A stretch of DNA of 64,000 nt from Skermanella mucosa (lineage in GTDB: Bacteria > Pseudomonadota > Alphaproteobacteria > Azospirillales > Azospirillaceae), in NCBI RefSeq assembly GCF_016765655.2, contig NZ_CP086106.1:917501-981500 (forward strand), in the 5' to 3' direction. Below, one piece after another: positions 37,535 to 41,433 of this stretch. The notes below the pieces were generated by a model. The model was given only the letters and a program-made list of their open reading frames with translations, was not told the DNA's origin and did not search any database. Position 1 is the stretch's first letter; the number at the start of each line of letters is the position of its first letter. A program made the position numbers and the translations under genes.

Positions 37535-38722
37535 GTGGAGCCCGCCGGCAGGATCGAGCTGCCCCCGGCCATGGCGGCGCCCGGGACCGCCCGGGTGTTC
37601 GACGCGATCACGGCGGACGGCGCCAAGGCCCGCTTCGTCGGCGGCTGCGTCCGCGACTCCCTGCTCCGGCGGCCCGTCAAGGACATCGACGTCGCGACCG
37701 ATGCGGAACCGGAACGGGTCATGCGGCTGCTGGAGTCCGCCGGCCTCCGCGCGATCCCGACCGGGCTTGCGCACGGCACCGTGACCGCCGTGGCGGACGG
37801 TGCCCATTACGAGATCACGACGCTTCGTCACGATGTCGAAACGTTTGGCCGCCATGCCCGCGTGGCTTTCACCGACGACTGGATGATCGACGCGTCGCGC
37901 CGGGACTTCACCATGAACGCGCTGTTCTGCGCGATCGACGGCACGCTGTACGACCCCTTCGGCGGCGTCCGCGACGCGCTGGACGGCCATGTCCGCTTCG
38001 TCGGCGATCCCCGCGCCCGCATCACCGAGGACGTGCTGCGCCTGCTCCGCTTCTTCCGTTTCCAGGCCCATTACGGCCGCACCCCGCCGGAGCCGGCGGC
38101 GCTCCATGCCTGCGCCGACCTGGCGCCGCTGCTGCCCCGCCTGTCGGGCGAGCGGGTCCAGGGCGAGCTGTTCCGGCTGCTGGGGGCTGCCGACCCGCTG
38201 CCGGTGCTGCGCCTCATGGCCGAACTGGGGATCATGGCGCACCTGCTGCCGCGGGCGACCGCGCTCGACCGGCTCGGCCTGCTGCTCGGCATGGCGCCGG
38301 ACCGGTCCGACCCCGTGCTGCGCTTGGCCGCCCTGCTGGACGTGGACCGCGCCGGCGCCCTGGAGGTCGCGGAGCGGCTGCGGCTTTCCAACGCCGACGC
38401 CGACCGGCTGGCGCTGCTGGCCGCGCCCCCGGTGGACCCGGCCTCCGCCAATCTCCGCCACGCGCTGTACCGGCTGGGTCCCTGCAAGGTCCGCGACATC
38501 GCCCTGCTGCACGCTCCGGACCGCATGGCCGAGGTGGAGCGGGCGATCGGCGCCTGGGAGGACCCCCGCTTCCCGCTCCAGGGGCGAGACCTGCTTGACC
38601 TGGGCATTCCGCGGGGCAAGCTGGTCGGACAGCTCTTGCGCGACCTGGAGCGCTGGTGGGAAGATCGGGACTATCGCCCCGGCCGCGATGAATGCCTGGC
38701 CGAACTGCGCGCCCGGCGGTGA
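37535..38722 (+). CDS. cca: CCA tRNA nucleotidyltransferase
   Basis: A 395-residue class II CCA-adding enzyme/poly(A) polymerase family protein that builds or repairs the 3' CCA of tRNA. The head motif is [20 protein letters not shown] with catalytic carboxylates in [15 protein letters not shown] and [15 protein letters not shown] follow. The start is GTG 37535, three bases after the DUF6111 stop. Confidence 0.96.
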
Positions 38723-38745
38723 ATCCGGGGAAGGGGACCAAAGCG

Positions 38746-39159
38746 ATGCGCGCCCTGATCGTCACCGTCGTCCTGGCCGCCGTCCTGATAGCGCTGGTCT
38801 TCGGCAACGCCGCCTTTTCCATCGCCGTGCTGGCCGACCGCATCGGCGGCGTCAACGCCTTCACCTACCGGATCGCCTCGACCGCCGTCCTGATCCTGGC
38901 GGTGGCTTGGCTGCACGCGCGCCTGACCGCCGGTCCCGGCTGGCTCCTCCGCGCGATCCTGGCCGGCGTGCTCTGGCTCGCCGCCTCGGTCACGCTGGAA
39001 CTGACGATCGCCCGCGCCGTGATGGGCGTGAGCTGGCCCAACCTGCTGGCCAACTACGCCTTCTGGCGCGGCGAGCCCTGGCCCTTCGTCCTCCTCCTCG
39101 AATTGGCCGCCCCCATCCTGTTCGGCTGGCTGCGCAACTACAGGGATATACAATCGTAG
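38746..39159 (+). CDS. Hypothetical four-helix membrane protein
   Basis: A 137-residue protein with about four transmembrane helices (LIVTVVLAAVLIALVFGNAA near the start; FVLLLELAAPILFGWL near the end). ATG 38746 follows GGGGAAGGGGACC. No family recognised. Its stop codon lies inside the first bases of the REP inverted repeat, which may serve as its transcript end. Confidence 0.7.
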   Translation: MRALIVTVVLAAVLIALVFGNAAFSIAVLADRIGGVNAFTYRIASTAVLILAVAWLHARLTAGPGWLLRAILAGVLWLAASVTLELTIARAVMGVSWPNLLANYAFWRGEPWPFVLLLELAAPILFGWLRNYRDIQS

Positions 39160-39234
39160 GTCGGGTAGAGCGAAGCGGCACCCGACAAAGCCGGCGCGTG
39201 GATGTCGGGTGCCGCTTCGCTCTACCCGACCTAC
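39156..39234. repeat. REP-type element: perfect 31-bp inverted repeat
   Basis: Arms 39156-39186 (starting GTAGGTCGGGTAGAGCGAAG) and 39204-39234 are perfectly complementary over 31 bases, with a 17-base spacer. The sequence is of the REP/BIME kind that RAYT transposases mobilise, and a RAYT gene begins 32 bases further on. It also covers the stop of the preceding membrane-protein gene. Confidence 0.9.
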
Positions 39235-39265
39235 GGAGTCTCCCGGTCAATTGATGTCCGGGAGA

Positions 39266-39766
39266 TCAAATATCCGATTGGCCGGCTCCGAACGGCAAGA
39301 CAGGTTCGACCTTCGGACGCCAGTCATGGCCATAGTATCCGCGCTGCTGGTACTTACGAAAACTGGACCACGGCCATTCTCCCGGTGCCGTCACGAGGCC
39401 GTGCCTGACTGGGTTCCAGTGGATATAGTCGATATGTCGGGCGTGGTCCTCGTCATCCCTGATGCGATGTTCCCAGAAGCGCTTTTGCCATGCGGTGCCT
39501 CCGTCCCGGCGACTGAAACGCGCCTTGATCATCTGCCATCGCGTCGAATAGTCCGTATCGCCCTCCGGCAGCTTCCAGAGGGCGTGAATGTGCTCCGGCA
39601 GGACGACGATGGCATCTATGGAGAACGGCCGCTCGCTCCGCACCTCGCGGAATACCTCGCGAAGTATGTTGACTTGAGGGTCGGCACAGAATACCGGATG
39701 CCGCCCGCGCGTCACCACCGTGAAGAAATAGGACGCTCCAGGCGTTTGATCCCGTCGATATCGCAT
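39266..39766 (-). mobile_element. REP-associated tyrosine transposase (RAYT), Y1 family
   Basis: A 166-residue IS200-like single-strand nuclease. The metal-binding HUH motif is His-Ile-His in VLPEHIHALW, and the catalytic Tyr lies in ARHIDYIHWNPVRHGLV, the typical RAYT signature. RAYTs are single-copy, domesticated transposases that process REP hairpins. A perfect REP palindrome sits just downstream. The start codon (39766) directly abuts the hemF stop (39767-39769), so it may be translated by coupling from the hemF message. Confidence 0.92.
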
Positions 39767-40651
39767 CTACGGCCACTTCACCTCCGGCGGCATGGACATC
39801 AGGATCGCCTCCACGTTGCCGCCGGTCTTCAGGCCGAAGGTCGTGCCGCGGTCGTAGAGCAGGTTGAATTCCACGTAGCGGCCGCGCCGGACCAGCTGGT
39901 GGTCGCGCTGCTCGGGCGTCCAGGGGTCGTTCATGTGCCGGCGGACGATCCGGGGATAGACGTCCAGGAAGCCCAGTCCGACATCGCGGGTGAAGGCGAA
40001 ATCGGCCTCCCAGTTCCCGGAATCCAGGTTGTCGTAGAAGATGCCGCCGATGCCGCGCGGCTCGTTCCGGTGCGGCAGGAAGAAGTAGCGGTCGCACCAT
40101 TCCTTGAAGCGCTCGTAATAGTCCGTTCCATGGGCGTCGCAGGCCCGCTTCAGCGCCGCGTGGAAATCGGCGGCGTCCTGCTCGGCCGGGAACATGGGCG
40201 TCAGGTCGGCGCCGCCGCCGAACCAGCCGAGGCTGGTGACGATGTGGCGCGTGTTCATGTGGACCGCCGGGACCAGCGGCGAGCGCATGTGGGCGACAAG
40301 GCTGATCCCGGCGGCCCAGAACCTTCCGTCGTCCGCCGCGCCCGGCATGTTCTTGCGGAACTCGGGGCTGAAGGTACCGTGGACGGTCGAGATGTTCACG
40401 CCGACCTTCTCGAACACCCGGCCGCGCATGATCGACATCACGCCGCCCCCGCCGTGCGACCCCTCGGCGTCAGGCCTGTCCCAGGCCTTGCGCTCGAACC
40501 GGCCGGCCGGCATGTCCGAATGGGTGCCGGTCAGCTCGTCCTCCAGCGCCTCGAACGCGGCGCAGATCCGGTCGCGCAGCTCGGCGAACCAGGCGGCGGC
40601 ACGGGCCTTGTGCTCCTCGGTCGGGACCGTGCGGTCCTTCGTGTCGTTCAT
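39767..40651 (-). CDS. hemF: Oxygen-dependent coproporphyrinogen III oxidase
   Basis: A 294-residue HemF, which converts coproporphyrinogen III to protoporphyrinogen IX with oxygen in haem synthesis. Family segments include [31 protein letters not shown] and [20 protein letters not shown]. The protein ends at VKWP and TAG. The RAYT start follows with no gap, so the element landed exactly behind the stop without harming the gene. trmL lies four bases upstream on the same strand. Confidence 0.97.
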
Positions 40652-40655
40652 TCCC

Positions 40656-41174
40656 TCAGTCCCTTCCCGTTTCCATTCCCATACCGTCGGTTCCCATACC
40701 GCCGGGGGCAGTCTGCCGCAACGCCTCGCCCAGCACCATGGCCGCGGCGAGGGCCACGTTCAGCGACCGCAGGCCGGGCCGCATCGGGATCCTGACCCGG
40801 GCGTCCGCGGCCTCGGCGACATCGTCCGGCACGCCGGCGCTCTCGCTGCCCATCAGCAGCGTGTCGCCCGCCTCGAACGCGAAGTCGAGATAGGGGACCG
40901 AGCCGCGCGTCGTCAGGAGGACGAGTCGGCCTCCCTTGGTTCCGGTGACGTATTTTTCCCAGGAGGCATGGCGGGTCAGATCAAGATGATCAATATAATC
41001 CATGCCGGCTCGGCGCAGCCTGCGATCGTCCAGGATGAAGCCGCAGGGCTCTATGATGTCCAGCGGCACGTCCAGGCAGGCGGCCAGGCGCATCATCGCG
41101 CCGGTATTCTGAGGGATATCGGGCTGGTAGAGCGCGAGCCTGATGCGGCTAGTGTGTGTCGTCGGAAAAATCAA
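40656..41174 (-). CDS. trmL: tRNA (cytidine/uridine-2'-O)-methyltransferase TrmL
   Basis: A 172-residue SPOUT methyltransferase that 2'-O-methylates wobble position 34 of tRNA-Leu isoacceptors. Conserved parts are [20 protein letters not shown], the knot region [13 protein letters not shown] and the final [16 protein letters not shown]. It is transcribed divergently from petA across a 259-base region, which shows no convincing consensus promoter to me. Confidence 0.95.
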
Positions 41175-41433
41175 GAGTCATTCTTTCTGCGAAACGACCC
41201 AGTCGGGCAAGCGCGACACTATGTCCCCGGAACTCCGGCTTTCCTTGACCGGGAACCAGAGGTATATCCCTGTCGCAACTGCGGCCGGCGCGAACCGGCC
41301 CCTAGTCCCGAGGTTTTGGGCTCGAGGTTTTGGGCAAGGTCCGAAGCAGACACGGCCGAAAACTATTGTTAATGTCCGTCCGGTTTGCAAGCGCACGCCA
41401 GTGCGCTTGCCAGGGCCAAGGAGAGAAAAGCTA

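Follow-up and report, generated by a model that had tools for sequence, protein, structure and literature searches.

How a transposase gene comes to stand directly behind a housekeeping gene, and how it is related to the palindrome on its other side, are the questions raised by the hemF locus of Skermanella mucosa. In the stretch of 64,000 nucleotides that we analyzed (the window, whose positions are used throughout), hemF, the gene for oxygen-dependent coproporphyrinogen oxidase, occupies 39767..40651 on the minus strand. The initial annotation had reported that the start codon of the next gene abuts the hemF stop without a gap, and this is the case: the stop codon TAG (39767-39769) is followed immediately by the ATG of an open reading frame on the same strand (39266..39766). 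Beyond that frame lie the palindrome and a small convergent gene (38746..39159, plus strand; we chose this start, the open reading frame list having 38692).

The gene behind hemF is a predicted REP-associated tyrosine transposase

Judged by its sequence, the open reading frame at 39266-39766 is a gene for a REP-associated tyrosine transposase (RAYT, or TnpA-REP) of 166 amino acids. It matched NF047646 strongly (1.6e-53; 180.5 bits against a cut-off of 80), scored just below the cut-off for Pfam Y1_Tnp (22.6 against 23), and matched PHROG 18266, a family annotated as of unknown function, at 143.9 bits. A single solved relative was found at E<=0.001, the E. coli TnpA-REP structure 4er8 (2e-41), the two sharing 73 of 157 aligned residues. 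The protein has the HUH motif (H59-I-H61) and the one catalytic tyrosine (Y114) that characterize the Y1 HUH family; the motif is kept in the alignment with 4er8, and Tyr114 aligns to Tyr115. The gene is the single copy of its kind in the S. mucosa genome, where the sole other match is 28% identical. IS-like multiplication is absent, in that the several near-identical whole copies that are a usual (not strict) trait of IS200/IS605 elements were not found.

The palindrome consists of two inverted REPs

The palindrome beside the RAYT spans 81 nt overall (39155..39235). Its arms (39155-39187 and 39203-39235) are 33 nt long, 100% complementary and separated by a loop of 15 nt. Within the first arm lies a REP (39156..39186, plus strand) made up of a GTAG head, a 7-bp stem (GTCGGGT/ACCCGAC) and an irregular 13-nt top, and within the second lies a REP of identical sequence on the opposite strand (39204..39234, minus strand). 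Folded as single-stranded DNA, the whole element reached -47.5 kcal/mol (z -12.2), with none of 200 shuffles as good, and each arm also folded alone (z -2.8 and -2.7). Further evidence comes from other copies of the repeat: 77 of 93 copies from five genomes could be parsed into two arms (16 could not), and among the resulting 154 arms the sixth stem position carried a compensated double change in 35, the other six positions in at most 1. Both arms were fully paired in 38 copies, 7 of which carry different stems in the two arms. The compensated changes and the differing, still-paired arms point to the single REP hairpin as the unit under constraint. We rejected the reading of the palindrome as one single REP on the grounds that each arm folds alone and that those 7 of the 38 elements have arms that differ and still pair; it is instead a REPIN, formed by two inverted REPs.

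The initial annotation had described a perfect 31-bp REP palindrome that lies just past the transposase end and covers the stop codon of the neighbor. The perfect pairing is real, and the overlap was confirmed, the stop codon TAG of the convergent gene (39157-39159) sitting within the GTAG of a REP. The arms, however, are 33 nt long and hold two REPs, and the element, while adjoining the transposase gene, starts 30 nt past its stop codon. In the spacer between them (39236..39265, minus strand) we read by eye an 8-bp hairpin, TCTCCCGG/CCGGGAGA. The REPIN thus ends the convergent gene, and it may serve as a two-way terminator. The convergent gene had no match in Pfam or NCBIfam, its alignment with sister species stops at about 39138, and Rfam at gathering scores gave no match in 38700-41400.

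The repeat family is dispersed and in good part older than the species

A search of the S. mucosa genome with the REPIN returned 74 rows (both strands), representing about 40 places. We read 35 of these (L001-L020 and L198-L212; L197 repeats L019) and left out five with E values of 0.55 to 3.6. As the initial annotation had led us to expect, other copies were plentiful: 34 of the 35 loci, all except L211, match the repeat, 21 of them over at least 75 of the 81 nt, 7 over 45-74 nt and 6 over shorter lengths, the last being weak matches below 45 nt, some of which may be due to chance. Among the 28 copies matched over 46 nt or more, a rough ORF caller placed 14 in tandem settings, 10 in convergent settings, none in divergent settings and 1 within an open reading frame, and left 3 unassigned. 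The family therefore has what defines REPINs, namely two inverted REPs with a linker in many dispersed, extragenic copies.

Outside S. mucosa, the repeat is largely a property of the genus. It matched at E<=0.001 in 7 of 99 genomes, comprising all five of the genus and 2 of the 94 others, both from another genus and with one weak match each. The exact REP pattern occurred in 2 of 385 genomes of the class, both Skermanella, and the reversed control in none. We compared S. mucosa with the four sister genomes, one per species, designated G001, G002 (S. rosea), G003 and G004 (S. stibiiresistens). Exact REPs number 22 in S. mucosa (7.84 Mb) versus 13 in G001 (5.9 Mb), which is without this RAYT. 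They are not clearly commoner in S. mucosa than in G001, and this comparison of exact-REP counts gives no sign of a REPIN burst following arrival of the RAYT.

For at least 14 of the 34 S. mucosa sites, both flanks correspond to those of a REPIN site in G001 or G002; these stand for at least 13 sites because L008 and L204 match one and the same sister copy. The shared-site number is a lower bound, the sister sets (17, 18, 20 and 4 loci from G001, G002, G004 and G003) being the best-scoring part of longer lists from which at most the best 40 candidates per genome were scored. Since so many sites are common to the sisters, a good part of the REPIN population is older than the species. Arms of at least 30 nt without mismatch occur in 5 of the 34 S. 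mucosa copies, and three of these five are at sites shared with sisters, and we therefore rejected the idea that perfect pairing indicates a young copy. Among the copies closest to the one at hemF, one with 98% similarity is found in G002, a genome without this class of RAYT.

The RAYT is absent from the hemF locus of sister species

Each of the four sister genomes has alignable counterparts of hemF and the convergent gene, with no RAYT between the two. Together with the many REP copies elsewhere, this absence supports the initial proposal that the unit was inserted behind hemF in the S. mucosa lineage. The accompanying suggestion of a young unit holds for the seat of the gene; it does not hold for the repeat, of which perfect copies also occupy sites shared between species. 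Sister species have the repeat family in common but not the seat of the RAYT gene. Within a single genus, the hemF locus is thus occupied in one species and empty in others, while the repeats have persisted and the RAYT varies, and the question of how RAYTs move therefore becomes testable.

Very probably, a REPtron, that is, a single-copy RAYT with its cognate REPIN, reached the spacer 3' of hemF in the lineage of S. mucosa. The alternative that a RAYT stood at hemF in the ancestor of the genus and disappeared from the four sisters is, in our estimation, very improbable. It could draw on the tree, where a single clade (98/95) unites the seven genus RAYTs included with four of the five from elsewhere in the family, and a RAYT was therefore present early in the family. 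The sister spacers, however, differ from one another and none contains a RAYT match, so that several losses would be required, and the nearest relative of the S. mucosa RAYT is at another locus.

The differences between the spacers are as follows. G001 and G002 share one type of palindrome, G004 has another, and G003 has 28 nt between the aligned blocks. The G001/G002 spacer (L052 and L053, about 1330-1500) holds a palindrome of another family, CACAGATGAACGCAGATGGACACAGAT, which at E<=0.001 gave 25 rows in S. mucosa, 28 in G001 and 33 in G002, and none in G003 or G004. The palindrome of S. stibiiresistens (L054) has perfect arms of 31 nt and a loop of 101 nt. Behind hemF in G046, from another genus of the family, lies an inverted repeat with 23-nt arms of the CCCTCTCCC type (L064). 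It seems that palindromes are acquired repeatedly in the spacer 3' of hemF. By eye, the alignment of the S. mucosa spacer with those of the sisters showed neither a target-site duplication nor clean insertion ends.

The nearest relative of the RAYT stands at another locus between two REPs

RAYT matches of any strength were present in 18 of 99 genomes and 13 of 53 genera, many of them only 25-33% identical. The nearest relative, in S. stibiiresistens (L081/L023), has 67-69% protein identity and is the sister of the S. mucosa RAYT in the tree (99/92); within the larger clade, the RAYTs that join this pair (99/94) are those from other genera, and the remaining Skermanella RAYTs stand apart. The S. 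stibiiresistens gene stands between two REPs identical to those of S. mucosa (32/32 nt), with 63 nt between the upstream REP and its ATG. The GTAG-tagged REPs that occur genome-wide therefore flank the RAYT on both sides in S. stibiiresistens and on one side in S. mucosa. Alignment of the two units begins at the ATG and takes in the downstream REP; upstream of the ATG they do not align. The leader and upstream REP seen in S. stibiiresistens may have been lost from the unit that arrived at hemF, or never brought along, which would leave the RAYT start directly behind the hemF stop. At the S. stibiiresistens locus, which we compared from its right neighbor only, the other four genomes of the genus also have that neighboring gene, with none of their RAYTs near it. 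A REPIN of a second family, described below, adjoins the same neighbor gene in S. mucosa and G001 (L269 and L270, about 1414-1450).

The route by which the unit arrived is a separate matter. REPINs are thought to spread by RAYT-mediated cutting and rejoining at REP hairpins. The RAYT of S. mucosa, as a predicted HUH single-strand endonuclease, would bind GTAG-tagged, single-stranded REP hairpins and cut and rejoin DNA there. A fragment from another Skermanella may instead have entered by homologous or illegitimate recombination, a route independent of RAYT action to which we give slightly less than an even chance. S. mucosa and S. stibiiresistens are 70.7% identical at the DNA level across the RAYT versus 89.5% across hemF, and a RAYT pair at one locus shared by G001 and G002 is 92.9% identical versus 94.6% for hemF. 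Given the first of these differences, the RAYTs of S. mucosa and S. stibiiresistens are not simple vertical partners, or one of them evolves much faster. The low third-position GC of the S. mucosa RAYT (0.69, against 0.94 in hemF) would likewise fit a foreign or relaxed gene, though the six other RAYTs of the genus that were measured have values of 0.59-0.79. Speaking against recombination, a REP adjoins the RAYT of this unit on one side, and the 99 genomes yielded no donor above 67-69% identity, nor did a pattern-based scan of contigs (79 loci kept), which finds close relatives only and may leave out records near the S. mucosa genome itself. These searches gave no distant donor either, near-full-length relatives outside the genus reaching at most 61% identity within the family and at most 52% among the other loci kept.

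In G016, from another genus of the family, a frame-shifted RAYT (L043:1809-1840 and L049:2111-2142) is accompanied by a REP of like plan, the stem of which is changed yet still paired (GTCGCAT/ATGCGAC).

The hemF junction may provide for expression of the RAYT

Upstream of hemF, at a distance of 4 nt, lies a gene for a SpoU-family methyltransferase (40656..41174, minus strand; TrmL-like, scoring under the equivalog cut-off). The gaps on the minus strand are 4 nt between this gene and hemF and 0 nt between hemF and the RAYT. The methyltransferase gene and hemF are likely cotranscribed, and the RAYT would be transcribed with them. A scan for simple sigma-70-like consensus promoters, which is a weak test, gave no match in 38700-41400.

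The junction itself reads GGAGGTGAAGTGGCCG-TAG-ATG, and coupled translation of the RAYT with hemF is plausible. Translation could proceed by re-initiation at TAGATG or from GGAGGTGA, a possible Shine-Dalgarno sequence within the last hemF codons (39778..39785, minus strand), which is separated from the RAYT ATG by 11 nt. This stretch also belongs to the hemF coding sequence of G001, G002 and G003, though not of G004, so the RAYT would be borrowing older sequence. It is also conceivable, and in our view rather unlikely, that the start codon abuts hemF by chance, with no functional coupling, and that the RAYT is silent or decaying. The promoter scan, weak as it is, the long distance of 11 nt between GGAGGTGA and the ATG, and the stops found within the RAYT matches of other genomes (G002, C1:4149667; G003, C199, near the C-terminal end; G011, C72) are consistent with such a state. 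All 166 codons of the S. mucosa gene, however, form an open frame, and the HUH motif, the tyrosine and the glycine of the C-terminal tail have been kept, which argues against decay.

Coupled expression, if it occurs, would be tied to an unusual arrangement. In a mechanical ORF test of 79 RAYT loci from genome contigs (one without a start, and some near contig ends), an abutting upstream ORF of at least 150 codons was found at 0 of the 78 other loci, the nearest gaps being 7 and 17 nt, and the zero-gap junction with hemF was seen in the S. mucosa genome only. A zero-gap junction with a housekeeping gene makes for a simple test system for coupled expression. The hemF stop TAG also stands behind CCG in L061 and L065, relatives without a RAYT at hemF; the GTAG at the junction may therefore be a coincidence, and its interpretation as a remnant REP head is weakened.

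The unit resembles the E. coli REPtron and differs in its seat

From these sequence features, the RAYT and REPIN of S. mucosa are classed as a REPtron, group-2-like, of a kind already known and with an unusual seat at hemF. The REP has the long form with an irregular stem zone that characterizes the E. coli-type group 2. In common with the REPtron of E. coli K-12 (rayT b0228, group 2), the unit has an HUH/Tyr protein and REPs built on one plan, GTAG followed by a 7-bp stem and then an irregular zone, which in E. coli is an AA/GC mismatch and in Skermanella arms mostly A(A/G)..GC. The E. coli residues that contact GTAG are given in a passage of PMC8266576 as Q95, E100 (printed D100) and R104, with K82 contacting a bulged C; the three GTAG-contacting residues and the tail glycine are kept in S. 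mucosa, whereas K82 aligns with an alanine. The E. coli protein falls in a different sub-clade of the tree. The K-12 rayT gene is separated by 175 nt from its upstream gene and has six GTAGG-headed stretches within about 1.1 kb, whereas the S. mucosa gene has zero gap to hemF and no upstream REP. Unlike the S. mucosa unit with its REP on one side at hemF, that of S. stibiiresistens is at another locus with REPs on both sides.

The REPINs of Pseudomonas fluorescens SBW25 are likewise inverted REP pairs, extragenic and dispersed, each RAYT having a set of its own (PMC3116915). Where the stem in S. mucosa has an irregular zone, group 3 REPs, found mainly in Pseudomonas, are short and in general perfectly palindromic (PMC8266576). 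On mobility, a statement in PMC3116915 holds that RAYTs 'appear to be incapable of self-mobilization' and PMC8266576 states that evidence for tnpA-REP mobility is lacking; for Pseudomonas, PMC3686654 describes RAYTs that occupy new sites and REPs that lack their RAYT partner. Among the papers listed by a literature search, none had a title pointing to the hemF-RAYT locus.

A second RAYT class and REPIN family in the genus

G001 and G002 share a RAYT of a second class with a different adjoining REPIN (L024 and L028), and the G002 copy has a stop. This REPIN (L024:1342-1438) belongs to a second, more abundant family that is present in S. mucosa, G001 and G002, with at least 68, 71 and 59 rows, respectively, the best 40 of 142-148 candidates having been scored in each. 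No second-family REPIN was found at E<=1e-8 among the best 40 of 82 and 87 candidates scored in G003 and G004. S. mucosa therefore carries both repeat families and the first RAYT class only, the second being absent, and G001 and G002 carry both repeat families and RAYTs only of classes other than that of S. mucosa. This combination of repeats and RAYTs is of the type described for Pseudomonas in PMC3686654. The site that holds the REPIN and second-class RAYT in G001 and G002 is occupied in S. mucosa by a parD/parE toxin-antitoxin pair (L286:2377-2999; Pfam PF03693 and PF05016).

These observations can be joined into a broader and speculative reading, which taken as a whole we hold to be unlikely. 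RAYT genes could move with REPs as their ends, one Skermanella REP family being served from unrelated addresses, and S. mucosa would have exchanged a RAYT of the second class (class B, at the site that is now parDE) for one of the first (class A) at hemF, with both REP populations remaining. The hemF seat would then be a captured expression site, selected for the borrowed hemF ribosome-binding sequence and stop codon.

S. rosea has in addition a third class of RAYT, downstream of which lie several perfect palindromes of 20-27 nt with CCATGG centers (L041:1073-1294).
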